Below, one piece after another: positions 22,609 to 27,546 of a stretch of 64,000 bases of DNA. The stretch's first letter is position 1, and the number at the start of each line of letters is the position of its first letter. The notes beneath the pieces are model-generated. The model was given only the letters and a program-made list of their open reading frames with translations. It had not been told where the DNA came from and did not search any database. The translations under genes were made by a program, and so were the position numbers. Source of the stretch: Betaproteobacteria bacterium (GTDB taxonomy: Bacteria > Pseudomonadota > Gammaproteobacteria > Burkholderiales > WYBJ01); NCBI GenBank assembly GCA_009377585.1, contig WHTS01000001.1, forward strand, positions 69,269 through 133,268, in the 5' to 3' direction.

Positions 22609-22921
22609 ACGAGTCTCCACCGCTTCCTTTCCGGCGTGCCCCTCCGGCCGACGCCGACATTGTAGTCATGACAGCGGCCCGAGACGAGAGCCGGCCGCTC
22701 CCCGCTTGCTCCCCGCTTGCTCCCCGCTTGCTCCCCGCTTGCTCCACGATGGCATGGCCTCGCGTGCTGCGGCTGCGATGGCCAAGCGCGATCCCGCATC
22801 CACGCGCGGACCGTGTCGAGCCGAGATGAGGGGCGCTATCGGCCCGCGCAGCGCGGGAACGAGAGGCCCGGCGAGTTACCATTGCGGTTCCATGCAGGAC
22901 GCAACCCAAGAGGAGTCATCC
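22609..22921. other. Divergent intergenic region with an 11-base tandem repeat
   Basis: Lies between the CBS gene and the selenoprotein gene. Apart from the tandem repeat at 22697-22747 nothing is recognisable. The promoter of the selenoprotein gene should be in the right half. Confidence 0.65.
22697..22747. repeat. 11-base tandem repeat, about 4.6 copies
   Basis: The unit GCTCCCCGCTT is repeated four times without change and is followed by a partial GCTCCAC. A simple minisatellite that may vary between strains. Confidence 0.9.
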
Positions 22922-24484
22922 GTGAACAGCAAGATGGGCGTCATCAGTCCCGAGGGCCAGCAGCTGCGCGCGGTCGGAGCCGCCAGCCGGCATCTCGACA
23001 CGCTCGAAGGCAAGACCATCGGCGAGGTCTACAACAATCACTTCAAGGGCGAGCTGATGTTCCAGACCTATCGCCGCCTGTTCCGGGAGCGCTTCCCGGG
23101 TGTGCGCATCATTGCGTTCGACAAATTTCCGATCGTCTACGTGGGCGGCGATCCGGTGTCGCAGAAGAAAACCGCCCAGGAGGTCGCGCAACTGGCCAGG
23201 CAGTGGGGCGTCGATGCGCTCATCGCCGGCAACGGTGGGTGAGGGACGTGCACTCCGGCCTCGGTGAGGCCGGCCGCAGAAGCAGAGAAGCTGGGCATTC
23301 CCAGCGTGGTGGTCACAACCACGGGCTTCACCAACATTGCCAAGGCCGTCGGCAGGGCCGAAGGCATTACCGGCTTGCGCGTGGCCGAGTATCCGGGCGC
23401 GGTCGGCGTGCATGCGGAAGCGCTGGTGGAAAAGAACGTCGAGACGGTCCTGTTCGACCGGATCGTCGCCGAGCTCACCCAGCCGAGACCCGGCGAGAGC
23501 GAAGGCGCGCTCGGGAGTGAGCGACGCGCCGACGAAATCGTGTTCGAGGGGACTTTCGACGAGATCAACGACCATTTTCGGCAGCAGCTGTGGACCGACG
23601 AGCTGCCGATCGTTGCGCCGACGCGCGAGCGCGTCGAGATGTTCCTGCAGCACACCCGGCGCGCACCCGATGAGAGAATCGCCGTGCTGGCGCAGGCCAA
23701 CCTCGCGGCGACGCCCTGGAACATCGCCGCCAATGCCGTCATGGCCGGGTGCCGGCCCGAGCACATGCCGGTGCTGATCGCAGCAGTCGAAGCGATCGCG
23801 GACAATGGCTACAACTTGAACAACATCGGCAGCACCTGGGGCGTGCTCCCGTTCCTGTTGGTCAACGGGCCGGCCGCGCACAAGCTCGGCATCGAGAACG
23901 GCGCGCAGCTCGTCAACAAGGGCGCCAATCCCGCGCTGGGGCGCGCGCTCGGGCTCATCATCCGCAACATTGCCGGCTACAAGCTGAGCCGCAACTACAT
24001 GGGCACCTTCGGCTATCCGATGAATTTCGTCGTCGCCGAGAACGAAGCGCTGTGCCCGTGGGAACCTTATCACGTCGAGCACGGCTTCGATCGCGACGAC
24101 AGCACGGTCACCGCGTGCGGCACGGTAACCTGGGGGTGGCCGCCCGCCATCTATGGAACCAAGGACAAGTCCGCCGCCCAGACCGCGCTCGAAATGCTGA
24201 GCCTGGAAGTCACCAAGAAGCCATGTTTGGGCAGGCTGGTCGAGCGCGGTCCGAACGGTTTCAGGAACATGGTCACGTTCCTCATCGCGCCGCCGGTGGC
24301 ACGCGCGCTCGCGCAAGCCGGATACGACAAGCAGAAGATCCGCGAGTACGTCTACGAACACGCGCGCGTGCTGCCCAGCCCGGAGGTGATCAACATCGTC
24401 GTGTGCGGCGATCCGGATCGCAATCGGGTGATGGTGCTTTGGGGCGGTTACGTGAGCCCGGCGACGAAGAAGATCGAGGCGTGA
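22922..24484 (+). CDS. UGSC-family selenoprotein, UGA read as selenocysteine at residue 107
   Basis: The GTG start follows AAGAGGAG. The frame meets TGA at 23240-23242 and then continues open and family-like to 24484, giving 520 residues. Around the TGA it reads AGNGG-U-GTC-TPASV: a U-x-x-C redox motif (Sec107, Cys110), followed by EKLGIPSVVVTTTGF. This is the pattern of the UGSC family, whose members carry Sec or Cys at this place. A stem-loop fit for a bacterial SECIS starts 12 bases after the UGA. Residues 1-185 form the UGSC-like domain. Residues 200-520 form a second conserved domain of unknown function with NLAATPWNIAANAVMAGC and GYPMNFVVAENE. The reaction is unknown; thiol-selenol redox chemistry is inferred. 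A plain stop would leave two useless halves. Confidence 0.85.
23255..23273 (+). promoter_or_regulatory. Candidate bacterial SECIS hairpin
   Basis: CCGGCCTC (23255-23262) pairs perfectly with GAGGCCGG (23266-23273) around a GGT loop. The loop begins 20 bases after the UGA and opens with G. Those features fit the bacterial SECIS rules (loop 16-37 bases downstream, G in the first two loop positions) for binding SelB. Confidence 0.75.
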
Positions 24485-24624: not shown

Positions 24625-25095
24625 ATGACAGAGCAAGTCAACATCAAGACCGTAGCCGAGCTCAGGAGCTGGGTCGGCAAGGAGGTCGCGGTCGGCCGCT
24701 GGATCACCGTCACGCAGGACATGATCAACAAGTTCGCCGAGGCGTCCGGCGACTATCAGTGGATTCACGTCGACGTCGAACGCTGCAAGAAGGAGTCGCC
24801 CTTCAAGACCCCGATCGCGCACGGCAACCTGACCTTCTGCCTGCTGTCGTCGATCACGCGCAATGCGGACGTCGCGCTGCCGGCCGGGAGAATGGGCATC
24901 AACTACGGTAGCAATCGCATCCGGTTCACTGGAGTGGTACCGGTCGGATCGCGCATCCGCGGGCGTTACAAGCTGCTCGACGTGAAGGACGTGGATGACA
25001 AAACCATCCTGGTGACCTGGGGCGTGACCGGCGAGATCGAAGGCGGCGACAAGCCCATACTCATTGCCGAGTCGCTGTCGCGCCGCACGTCGTGA
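24625..25095 (+). CDS. MaoC-family (R)-specific enoyl-CoA hydratase-like protein
   Basis: 156 residues with a GACAGGAGG ribosome site. A single hot-dog domain is present. Asp43-x4-His48 (SGDYQWIHVD) is the catalytic pair of hydratase 2, and TPIAHGNLT is the following conserved turn. It closely resembles the NodN/MaoC group that hydrates trans-2-enoyl-CoA to (R)-3-hydroxyacyl-CoA. It follows the selenoprotein gene by 140 bases on the same strand; a shared transcript is possible but not proven. Confidence 0.92.
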   Translation: MTEQVNIKTVAELRSWVGKEVAVGRWITVTQDMINKFAEASGDYQWIHVDVERCKKESPFKTPIAHGNLTFCLLSSITRNADVALPAGRMGINYGSNRIRFTGVVPVGSRIRGRYKLLDVKDVDDKTILVTWGVTGEIEGGDKPILIAESLSRRTS

Positions 25096-25229
25096 AAGGC
25101 GATACGGCGGGCGCAGGCTGACCGCGGCTGCGCGCCACCGACGAGCTCGCCGAGCGGCCGACAGCCGCCATCGCCATCGCGCCGAAGAGCTAGGGTACCC
25201 GGCCGACGAGGTCGCATGCACAATGGCGG

Positions 25230-25282
25230 CAGCGGCGAGACCGGCAGCGGCAAGACCGGCAGCGGCAAGACCGGCAGCGGCA
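25230..25282 (+). repeat. 15-base tandem repeat before the deacetylase start
   Basis: The unit GGCAGCGGCAAGACC occurs about 3.5 times (one copy has GAG for AAG). In the frame of the following gene it encodes repeated GSGKT. It lies just before the likely start at 25303, within a longer in-frame ATG start at 25216. Confidence 0.88.
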
Positions 25283-25302
25283 AGACCAACGGGGAAGGCA
25301 CC

Positions 25303-26202
25303 ATGACGATCGAGCAATCCAAGACCGCACCCTGGCAGTGGCCCGAAGAAGAATGGCGGCGCCGGGTGGAGCGCGTTCGCGCGGGCCGCGCGCTCAAGCC
25401 GCGCCAGTGGCCGGGCGGCGCGCGTTGCGCGATGGCGCTGTCGTTCGACTCGGATCACGACACCACCGATTTGCGCGACGGCGGCGAGTCGATCGGCCGG
25501 CTCTCGCAAGGGCAGTACGGCTATCGCCAGGGCGTGCCGCGCATGCTCGATGTCCTGCGCACGCACGACGTGAAGGCGAGCTTTTTCGTGCCGGCGGTAA
25601 CGGCCTTGCTTTATCCAGACGAGCAACGGCGCGTCATCGCCGAGGGCCACGAGATCGCGATCCACGGCTGGATCCACGAGCGCAATTCGGAGCTTCCGCC
25701 GCAGGACGAGCGCGAGCTGCAAATGCGCTCGGGCGATACCTTGGAGCGCATCACCGGCGTGCGTCCCGTCGGCATCCGCACGCCGTCGTGGGACTTCACG
25801 CCGCACACGCTCGCGATCACGCGCGAGATGGGGCTACTGTACGACTCCTCGCTCATGGCCGACGTGGATTGCTACGAGCTCATGATGGACGGCGAGAACT
25901 CCGGCGTGGTGGAGCTTCCGGTGGAGTGGGTGCGCGACGACGCGGTCTACTTCAACATGAACCGGTTCGCGTCGCTGCGCCCGCATACGCCGCCCAGCGA
26001 GGTGTTCGATATCTTCAGGCGCGAGCTCGATGCCGCGTACGCCGAGGGCGGGCTCTTCCAGCTCACCATGCACCCGCATATCAGCGGGCAGCGCTCGCGC
26101 ATCTGGATCCTGGAGGAGCTGATCCGGCATGCGAAGGCGCGGAAGGACGTGTGGTTCGCGACCCATGCCGACGTGGTGCGCTACGTGAAGAGCGCCGCGT
26201 AG
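25303..26202 (+). CDS. Polysaccharide deacetylase family protein
   Basis: 299 residues from the ATG at 25303, preceded by GGGGAAGG. An upstream ATG at 25216 would add 29 residues of GSGKT repeats and is judged less likely. Motif 1 FDSDHD (48-53) supplies the catalytic base and a metal ligand, and HGWIH (121-125) gives the two metal histidines. RTPSWDFTPHTL and LTMHPHISG are later family motifs. This subgroup (with allantoinase-like PuuE) hydrolyses N-acyl or imide bonds in small molecules as well as sugars. No signal peptide is seen, so it is probably cytoplasmic and not a cell-wall enzyme. Confidence 0.9.
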   Translation: MTIEQSKTAPWQWPEEEWRRRVERVRAGRALKPRQWPGGARCAMALSFDSDHDTTDLRDGGESIGRLSQGQYGYRQGVPRMLDVLRTHDVKASFFVPAVTALLYPDEQRRVIAEGHEIAIHGWIHERNSELPPQDERELQMRSGDTLERITGVRPVGIRTPSWDFTPHTLAITREMGLLYDSSLMADVDCYELMMDGENSGVVELPVEWVRDDAVYFNMNRFASLRPHTPPSEVFDIFRRELDAAYAEGGLFQLTMHPHISGQRSRIWILEELIRHAKARKDVWFATHADVVRYVKSAA

Positions 26203-26562
26203 CCGCGCCGACACCAGTCGCCCGTCGTCAAGGGATCCTCTGACCGACGTCATTCCCGTGAAAACGGGAAGTCCAGGGTGGTTACGTTCGAATGCCTGCA
26301 TTCCCGCTTGCGCGGGAATGAGTGCGGAAAAGTGCGTCGCCCGTGCGCAGAGCCTGACCGAATGCGCTTCAGCCGACCCTTGCCGTCCCCGCGCACATCC
26401 ACGTAAGTCGAACCGCTTATTTCCGGCAGGTCGATATCGACCTACGATCCGATCCGCCAAGTCCACGACCTGGAAGTCGGCCACACTCGTTTTTTCGGGA
26501 ACCACACACGCATCCGGAGGTGACGCGCACGTCTGAGTAACCAGCGAGTGAGGGTGGGCATC
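26203..26562. other. Intergenic region with repeat family 2
   Basis: Contains the REP-like pair at 26249-26322. The rest, including about 150 bases before the next gene, shows no ORF worth calling and no clear promoter boxes. Confidence 0.65.
26249..26322. repeat. Dispersed repeat family 2, copy 2
   Basis: Two hairpins: GTCATTCCCGTGAAAACGGGAA at the left and ATTCCCGCTTGCGCGGGAAT at the right, separated by a GTCCAGG block. The same right hairpin occurs at 49026-49044. Confidence 0.85.
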
Positions 26563-27546
26563 ATGAAGCGGTTAGGCTTTGTCGTTGCATTGTTTGCACT
26601 GGCATTTTCGGTCGACGGTTCACTGGCCCAATCCGGCACGGCGGCAAAATATCCGGAGCGACCGCTGCGCTACATCATCCCCTTCCCGCCGGGCGGCTCC
26701 ACCGACATCGTCGGGCGCATCGTGGCTGCGGCGCTGACCGAAGACCTGGGCCAGCAGGTCGTCATCGACAATCGGGCCGGTGCGGGCGGCACCGTTGGCG
26801 CCGAGATCGCCGCCCGCGCCACGCCGGACGGCTACACGATCTTCGCCTGCAATATCGCATCGCTCGCCGTCAGCCCGGCGCTCTACAAGAAGCTGGGCTA
26901 CGATGCCGCCAACGATTTCACGCCGATCGGCCTGGTGGGCAGCAATCCCAATTCGCTCGTCGTCCATCCCTCGGTTGCCGCCAAGTCGGTGTCCGAGTTC
27001 ATCGCCTTGGCAAAATCCCAGCCGGGCAAGCTCAATTACGGTTCGGCTGGTGTCGGTACGTCTCCGCAATTGTCGATGGAGCTGTTCAAGATGAACGCGG
27101 GCATCGACGTCACCCACATTGCCTACAAGGGCGCCGGGCCCGCGGTCGCGGACCTGCTCGGCGGCCATCTGCACGCCATGTTCGCCACCGTGCCGTCCGT
27201 GCTGGGTGGGATTCGCGCGGGCAGGATTCGCGTGCTCGCCGTAACGTCCAGGAAGCGTGCCCCCGATCTGCCCGATGTGCCGACGCTGGCAGAGTCCGGC
27301 ATGCCGGACTTCGAGGTCATCTCCTGGCAGGGATTGTGCACGCCGAAAGGAGCGCCGAAACAGGCGGTCGAACGGCTGCGCGCGGCACTGTCCGCGTCGC
27401 TCGAGCGGCCTGCAACGCGCAAGCAGCTTGCCGATCAGGGCATCCAGCCCGAGGACCGCACTGCGGAGCAGTTCGCGAGCTTCATCCGCTCCGAGCACGC
27501 CAAGTGGGCGAAGGTCGTGAAGGACATTGGCATCAAGCCGAAGTGA
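26563..27546 (+). CDS. Bug/TctC-family periplasmic solute-binding protein
   Basis: 327 residues from an ATG preceded by GAGGGTGG; a GTG at 26548 is less likely. The signal peptide is residues 1-23 (SLA-QSG). IPFPPGGSTD at 39-48, the DNRAGAGG loop and the AYKGAGPAV segment mark the family. The C-terminus ends in the common WAKVVKDIGIKPK pattern. It is convergent with the HpcH/HpaI aldolase gene, 13 bases away. Ligand unknown. Confidence 0.93.
   Translation: MKRLGFVVALFALAFSVDGSLAQSGTAAKYPERPLRYIIPFPPGGSTDIVGRIVAAALTEDLGQQVVIDNRAGAGGTVGAEIAARATPDGYTIFACNIASLAVSPALYKKLGYDAANDFTPIGLVGSNPNSLVVHPSVAAKSVSEFIALAKSQPGKLNYGSAGVGTSPQLSMELFKMNAGIDVTHIAYKGAGPAVADLLGGHLHAMFATVPSVLGGIRAGRIRVLAVTSRKRAPDLPDVPTLAESGMPDFEVISWQGLCTPKGAPKQAVERLRAALSASLERPATRKQLADQGIQPEDRTAEQFASFIRSEHAKWAKVVKDIGIKPK

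Follow-up and report, generated by a model that had tools for sequence, protein, structure and literature searches.

The stretch of DNA analysed here, hereafter the window, comprises 64,000 nucleotides of a betaproteobacterial genome (assembly GCA_009377585.1, G000 in our set, 6.76 Mb in 242 contigs; contig WHTS01000001.1, our C1, positions 69269–133268) and carries on its forward strand, at 22922–24484, a fusion gene of the UGSC selenoprotein family. The gene encodes 520 residues, from a GTG start situated 6 nt downstream of a putative ribosome-binding site recognised by eye from the sequence (AGGAG, 22911–22915) to a TGA stop at 24482–24484. Its N-terminal part is a UGSC domain (PF24696, 22940–23482), supported by our own profile, Pfam, the AlphaFold2 model and an hhalign alignment to a PrdB-like profile; its C-terminal part (23549–24370) is a domain of unrecognised fold, hereafter the C-domain, defined by our own profile and encoded at other loci by an independent neighbouring gene. 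The lone internal TGA of the frame, at 23240–23242, lies in the translated context AGNGG-U-GTC-TPASV, where the frame, the homologues and the genomic machinery point to selenocysteine (Sec) at codon 107, the first residue of a U-G-T-C motif; the TGC at 23249–23251, for Cys110 of this UxxC motif, is TGC in 27 of 27 aligned sequences. Downstream, at 23255–23273, stands a hairpin of the bacterial Sec insertion sequence (SECIS) type, CCGGCCTC-GGT-GAGGCCGG, which starts 15 bases past the T of the TGA and has a perfect 8-bp stem and a GGU loop.

A first, sequence-only reading of the window had proposed that one frame is coding on both sides of this TGA. The G+C content of third codon positions is equal across it (0.858 on the 5' side versus 0.862 on the 3' side), and both halves match PF24696: the protein read through scores 81 bits over residues 7–186 (gathering threshold 25), the post-TGA half alone 40.6 bits, and the pre-TGA half 19.4 bits, under the cut-off of 25. 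Since the halves match UGSC separately and the third-position composition does not change at the TGA, the coding claim is right and its coordinates are exact, down to the codon number and the surrounding motif. U107-G-T-C110 conforms to the family pattern Sec/Cys-G-x-C, and both the family and the architecture of the gene were known before. With NF041046, the NCBIfam equivalog, the window protein scores 51.8 bits for a curated cut-off of 125, so that the gene may well be missed by annotation. Judged from these comparisons it is a diverged branch of the wider UGSC family and not the NCBI equivalog, from which it also differs by its UGTC motif and by being one of 24 paralogues in one genome. If ordinary annotation cuts such genes at the TGA, databases may hide part of the metabolism based on UGSC.

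In 2008 Zhang and Gladyshev presented UGSC as a major environmental selenoprotein family, with 255 Sec-containing and 21 Cys-containing sequences in the Global Ocean Sampling (GOS) data, and noted its fusion to a domain named Unknown_1 (PMC2398784); a 2016 survey of more than 5200 genomes tabulates UGSC with 26 and 33, which we take as organisms and genes. The window protein and the published fusion share the same domain, with Sec first in UGxC and Cys at +3, as well as a conserved domain fused at the C-terminus, and we infer that the C-domain is Unknown_1. The fusion put forward by the sequence-only reading is thus real but not novel, as the 2008 paper already contains it. The UGTC motif, held in that reading to be a peculiarity of this copy, is instead a common variant, found in 46 of 83 domains of a set enriched in orthologues of the window gene. 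What appears to be new is the amplification of the family, its constant pairing with the C-domain, its PrdB/GrdB ancestry and its neighbourhood of solute-binding proteins.

Every one of the 27 sequences in the codon alignment, among them that of the window, has TGA at codon 107. It is kept nearly throughout the 83 UGSC domains as well, where Cys or another residue is rare: the Sec column holds TGA in 80, Cys in one (a CGTS copy of the same genome) and Ser in one, and is missing in one truncated locus. Chance as an explanation is excluded. As 48 of the loci were found by patterns from the window protein, the motif counts lean towards orthologues of the window gene. The genome has the complete Sec machinery, with selA (559 bits), selB (443 bits), selD (412 bits) and a tRNA-Sec with anticodon TCA, all four present; contig C118 holds selA, selB and tRNA-Sec, and selD lies on C2. 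This selD is itself a selenoprotein gene (C2:81361-82290, L026), with an in-frame TGA in HGGGUGCK.

The hairpin leaves its mark on codon usage. Codons +5 to +10, which lie under it, show zero synonymous variation among the 27 sequences, versus a gene mean of 0.45, and the Arg codon at +9 is AGG in 27 of 27, versus 45 of 692 other Arg codons. The window hairpin scores 11.5 versus a control median of 5.0; of the 23 Sec copies of this genome, 21 attain a score of at least 8 (0.91, versus 8.1% of 805 in-frame control positions), as do 61% of 57 other copies (versus 4.8% of 1939 control positions). Among 16 homologues of one hairpin register, picked from 80, 96.9% of cells pair versus 88.8% in shuffles, three of the eight pairs change on both sides, and the covariation score is equalled by none of 500 shuffles. 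Hairpins are weaker in some copies: the stem has a mismatch in 10 orthologues with PSSVRP, and among the 11 Chloroflexi copies with UGTC and TPACTRP a better helix forms in another register in 7; an Rfam search of the SECIS gave no useful match and a single chance row (E 0.61). From this pattern of variation we consider that a SECIS-type hairpin is present 3' of the UGA and is under selection. With the TGA kept in homologues, such a hairpin and the machinery in the genome, the Sec insertion proposed by the sequence-only reading is borne out, and the comparative evidence makes the decoding of the window UGA as selenocysteine practically certain.

The same evidence bears on the alternative that this TGA would be a sequencing error, a pseudogene mutation, or a codon suppressed or reassigned genome-wide, for which no supporting point was found. 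TGA is the commonest stop in the sampled loci of this genome, ending 82 of the 142 other genes called with a purpose-made gene caller, and therefore is not reassigned. An error or a pseudogene is contradicted by the TGA shared by the 27 aligned orthologues and the 80 homologous domains, by the frozen codons of the SECIS and by the complete Sec machinery. The alternative is thus refuted, and its probability may be taken as negligible.

The second constant feature of the family is its partner. In the genome of the window none of the 24 UGSC domains lacks a C-domain, 16 of them being fused to it in frame (the window gene included) and 8 adjacent, as same-strand neighbours in either order and no more than 560 nt apart; one lone C-domain lies on contig C33. 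The distances in the N-domain and in the C-domain correlate over the 22 own pairs of enough length (r = 0.84), a value reached by none of 2000 permutations, whose maximum is 0.37. UGSC and the C-domain very probably form a two-component enzyme. In three loci of Dehalococcoidia/Chloroflexi (L071, L072 and L073) a single free UGSC gene is flanked by two to three C-domain matches, in L073 with two of them in one frame; the arrangement suggests that one selenoprotein might be common to several C-domain partners.

Among 47 of 82 C-domains (less than 75% alike) and that of the window, D226, P233, A269, G276, C277, N315-G316-P317, N336, R341, N349, E373 and W380 are invariant or nearly so, a set of conserved positions that looks like an active site. 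The 48 members matched no family of Pfam or NCBIfam, a sequence-profile search of the PDB gave a best E of 9.3, and with the model of the C-domain alone Foldseek gave a best E of 1.1 and VIA-align a best Z of 5.4 over 101 residues, with no convincing fold. Weak repeated Foldseek rows to the [4Fe-4S] cysteine desulfidase CyuA and to a Leishmania fumarate hydratase, all with E above 1, were not used. Such a lack of matches does not show that the fold is new.

For the UGSC domain itself, the comparisons lead to PrdB of D-proline reductase and GrdB of glycine/sarcosine/betaine reductase. Of the 51 fused proteins examined (from 60 eligible), TIGR04483 (PrdB) matches 30 at E of 0.1 or less, with a best value of 4.9e-7, TIGR01917 (GrdB) 24, with a best value of 1.2e-6, and TIGR01918 20. 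Hhalign, run with a profile of 44 UGSC domains (from the 45 N-domains less than 75% alike among 83, the double-Sec one being left out) and a profile of 11 PrdB-like proteins (from the 16 loci of a phylum search for PrdB), gives a probability of 92.8% and an E of 4.1e-7 over 105 columns, and puts U/C-G-x-C on U/C-P-x-C, followed by a conserved GIPtVV. The domain shared with PrdB is homologous, UxxC occupying the corresponding position and the same motif following it; the GrdB profiles match the UxxC region weakly but repeatedly, and for the window protein this match spans only about 75 of 431 GrdB positions and stays under the cut-offs. These alignments make it likely, to a degree that leaves us rather confident, that UGSC is a remote homologue of PrdB and GrdB. 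The genome of the window also has a separate PrdB-like selenoprotein, with SPV-U-PNC in a 427-residue open frame (C3:149450-150016, L117).

The AlphaFold2 model (predicted local distance difference test 83.7) gives the UGSC domain a Rossmann-like alpha/beta fold, with Sec107 between strand 99–105 and helix 110–123. Structural comparison of this model listed 50 matches at Z 8.6–11.1, the first being a designed protein and those below it mostly of folds which we take to be Rossmann- or flavodoxin-like. Set against a thioredoxin fold, the model has alternating beta-alpha units and places Sec after strand 99–105, and its best listed matches are mostly Rossmann- or flavodoxin-like, in a list that need not show every similar fold.

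A rival reading is a role in redox defence, in which the UGSC/C-domain protein would be a selenium-dependent thiol-disulfide oxidoreductase or peroxidase, with a thioredoxin-like UxxC and with the copy number as redundancy. The motif is present in most copies, and the 2008 paper judges a thioredoxin-like fold likely for UGSC (PMC2398784). However, the predicted fold is Rossmann-like, the homology is to PrdB/GrdB, and the second Cys is dispensable, being replaced in the UGSS of two and the UGTU of one of the 83 domains. Solute-binding proteins and catabolic enzymes stand moreover among the neighbours, as described below, and we know of no redox-defence enzyme present in more than 100 diverged copies per genome. 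We consider a role in redox defence quite improbable.

The main point, out of reach of the sequence-only reading, is that the gene has many paralogues, akin to the selenoproteins of proline and glycine reductase. Of the 24 UGSC domains in the genome of the window, one has Cys and the other 23 have TGA, and these paralogues are old, with a median identity of 27% in the N-domain and 36% in the C-domain. Three genomes of the same genus give 17, 19 and 26 UGSC matches (a few under the cut-off), while 6 and 9 come from two others of that order; any match at all is found in 9 of the 60 genomes searched, the present one included, and in none of 14 control genomes. In a sample of the phylum, with the best 8 candidates kept per genome, UGSC occurs in 5 of 398 genomes, again including this one, and the other four have two matches each at most. 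Among 13 genomes with related loci, matches number 10–19 in the seven that carry an orthologue of the window gene, 12 in a metagenome-assembled genome (MAG) of Comamonadaceae, at least 132 in the Chloroflexi MAG JACPQD and 3–5 in the remaining four.

Some of the 24 copies depart from the usual motif. The sole Cys copy reads CGTS, with Cys for Sec and Ser for the second Cys (C44:7810-8316; L077:4302-5801, forward strand); two others carry UGSSTPWT, with Ser at +3, and have their best helix further 3' than the usual register (C44:11571 and C21:4592; L077 and L083). In a fused UGSC gene at C161:4624-5589 (L084) the C-domain match ends after about 120 positions, so that the gene is possibly broken.

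The MAG JACPQD (Chloroflexi, isolate NC_groundwater_644, 5.0 Mb, G350) carries the largest expansion, with at least 150 UGSC domains (the best 150 of 208 candidates, the weakest listed at E 9e-23). The Sec column of these 150 aligned domains is TGA in 146, Ser in three, Gly in one and Cys in none; the motifs of the 146 Sec copies are UGSC in 65, UGAC in 33, UGGC in 24, UGTC in 17 and others in 7. A hairpin score of 8 or more is found for 70% of the 146, versus 5.1% of 5110 control positions; the p-value of this comparison was set aside, as it takes related sequences for independent ones. The MAG has selA (568 bits), whose 4.3-kb locus contains no tRNA gene, and no search for selB or tRNA-Sec was made in the rest of the MAG. 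A co-assembly of strains as the main cause of the 150 copies was rejected: nearest-neighbour identity has a median of 0.70 and a maximum of 0.91, with no value above 0.95, and 18 copies lie on one contig of 359 kb and 20 on another of 351 kb. In a tree of 211 domains, which took in 23 of the 24 domains of the betaproteobacterial genome (one short domain being dropped), the 150 domains form 18 clusters with up to 34 members, so that old diversity and later duplication both seem to contribute.

Two kinds of variants were seen in this MAG. One copy has a double TGA, UGTU, the second Cys of the motif being also TGA (L054:4230-5774, forward strand, which is L187, G350:C101:30937-31443). Three copies have Ser for Sec, in SGVY or SGVW (L251, which is L054:9885-11414, L233 and L265), and the fully read one keeps its fused C-domain; these may be regulatory or inactive paralogues.

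In the literature searched on UGSC, Chloroflexi selenoproteomes, betaproteobacterial expansion and groundwater selenoproteins, no report of a UGSC amplification was found. The largest published bacterial selenoproteomes that we found, as cited in PMC13188914, are those of a Methylomirabilota MAG (63) and, before that, of the Olavius algarvensis Delta 1 endosymbiont (57); deep-Sep reports 46 (PMC12013277). The present genomes resemble the first two by unusually many Sec genes per genome, and differ from them by having so many of one family, at least 146 in the Chloroflexi MAG and 23 in the betaproteobacterium. With no fewer than 146 distinct Sec genes, this single family in JACPQD amounts to more than twice the figure of 63, which stems from Deng et al. 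2026, a study of groundwater MAGs cited in PMC13188914; these authors may have met the MAG JACPQD. The same review states that selenoproteins are rarely retained by aerobic bacteria, a statement with which about 20 such Sec genes in each of these betaproteobacteria would sit badly if they are aerobic.

The surroundings of the UGSC genes give some indication of what they serve. We sampled 18 regions of JACPQD, 301 kb with 73 UGSC and 72 C-domains, in which the most frequent neighbour belongs to a group of 59 similar proteins, spread over 17 regions; the three of these 59 tested by Pfam are all SBP_bac_5 solute-binding proteins (238–251 bits). A gene of this cluster lies within 2.5 kb of 60 of the 73 UGSC units, always on the same strand, the regions having been picked for their UGSC density. 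We do not claim a lipoprotein nature for these solute-binding proteins: tested by pattern, only 13 of 59 show a lipobox-like motif, and several starts are lipoprotein-like by eye. Other neighbours, identified singly by Pfam, are of MmgE/PrpD, glycyl-radical enzyme, LarA-type, HMGL-like, LUD-domain, cupin and PGA_cap types, to which a CoA-transferase is added by eye. In the betaproteobacterial genome, 17 of 127 neighbour genes at UGSC loci cluster with the TctC protein of the window. This genome has at least 150 genes for TctC solute-binding proteins (among 454 candidates), an extreme amplification, and adjacency to TctC was for this reason discarded as a clue there. Near orthologous units TctC is more frequent, in 15 of 30 versus 21 of 133 control genes (p = 0.00015), the orthologues being related to one another and the control coming from another genome.

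The neighbours could also speak for a non-reductive enzyme, that is, a lyase, hydrolase or isomerase of acyl-CoA or organic-acid catabolism in which the selenol would act as nucleophile or general base. MmgE/PrpD-type proteins recur in the genome of the window (6 proteins in 5 loci, by eye) and in JACPQD (5 clustered proteins from 4 regions, with a representative that Pfam assigns to MmgE/PrpD), and genes for a CoA-transferase III, an HpcH/HpaI aldolase and a MaoC protein lie near the window gene. By contrast, the relatives PrdB and GrdB belong to reductases, and a Cys or Sec at +3 in 78 of the 80 Sec copies suits a redox couple; Sec has few known uses outside redox chemistry. A non-reductive enzyme therefore seems to us unlikely.

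We favour reductive cleavage because the selenoprotein subunits of proline and glycine reductase take part in the reductive cleavage of their substrates (PMC13188914). SelB and tRNA-Sec almost certainly decode the UGA at codon 107 by means of the hairpin that follows it, and the UGSC domain, predicted to be Rossmann-like, would place Sec107 with its selenol where a helix starts, Cys110 three residues further serving as resolving thiol. The C-domain, given its pairing with UGSC, might bind or activate the substrate. By analogy with PrdB/GrdB, the selenolate would attack the substrate so activated, a carbon-heteroatom bond would be split reductively, and a Se-S bond to Cys110 would form and be re-reduced by a thiol donor. 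The paralogues would then be substrate variants of one chemistry, each fed by its own solute-binding protein, of ABC family 5 in the Chloroflexi genome as its gene neighbourhoods suggest, and less firmly of the TctC type in betaproteobacteria. A two-domain Sec enzyme for selenol-dependent reductive cleavage, with paralogues for different imported substrates, is in our opinion the best overall explanation of the comparative data, with chances that appear evenly divided; for the function taken alone, reductive cleavage of imported substrates by analogy with the reductases, even chances are the most that we would grant.

Several observations weigh against reductive cleavage as proposed. The window protein is far under the curated cut-offs of the reductase families (20.7 bits for 300 with TIGR04483, 20.5 for 65.45 with TIGR01918 and 20.5 for 602.2 with TIGR01917), and, as a further difference from PrdB, its partner belongs to no recognised family. 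No likeness of the C-domain to a family of Pfam or NCBIfam was detected, and hence none to the pyruvoyl-type partner subunits of proline and glycine reductase, PrdA and GrdE, which PrdB and GrdB need; the step of substrate activation is unsupported. The structural matches of the UGSC model are of a widespread arrangement. As to import, the 60 of 73 units of JACPQD come from regions picked for their wealth of UGSC genes; in the betaproteobacterial genome the pairing with TctC is weak (7 of 24 units versus 21 of 133 control genes, p = 0.15), and the window gene has no TctC gene within 500 bp, the nearest being the third gene downstream. Its own neighbours are, lastly, hardly conserved.

UGSC has been a common environmental selenoprotein of unassigned role since at least 2008, and its link to PrdB/GrdB, its partner and its solute-binding neighbours together make a testable idea. 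We put forward, tentatively and as something a little less probable than its contrary, that UGSC with its C-domain could be an unrecognised large class of relatives of proline and glycine reductase, in which the pyruvoyl subunit would have been swapped for a new activating domain, and which would have been amplified to between 20 and more than 150 copies per genome, every paralogue having a solute-binding protein of its own, and would let freshwater betaproteobacteria and groundwater Chloroflexi feed on many different small organic compounds. If true, selenocysteine would be there a workhorse of carbon catabolism.

Downstream of the window gene, on the same strand, lie a MaoC-like dehydratase gene (24625–25095, PF01575, 85 bits), which is the next gene 3' and might form an operon with it, then genes for a polysaccharide-deacetylase-type hydrolase (25216–26202, PF01522, 65 bits) and for a TctC solute-binding protein (26548–27546, PF03401, 275 bits). 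A conserved operon was rejected, as the neighbours rarely recur: neither the MaoC nor the deacetylase gene turned up near any of 29 orthologue loci, of which some are short, and of the other neighbours the upstream MFS gene is found at two, the CBS gene at one, and weak relatives of HpaI, of the SDR and of CaiB at one, three and one respectively.

Two short sequences resemble the end of the window protein. In its own genome a stretch at C139:13814-13933, away from UGSC matches, matches its last 40 residues, and in JACPQD a 99-residue open reading frame beside a UGSC gene (L285:17799-18095, reverse strand, G350) resembles its C-terminal tail by eye. This tail may be a third, separable module of the protein.

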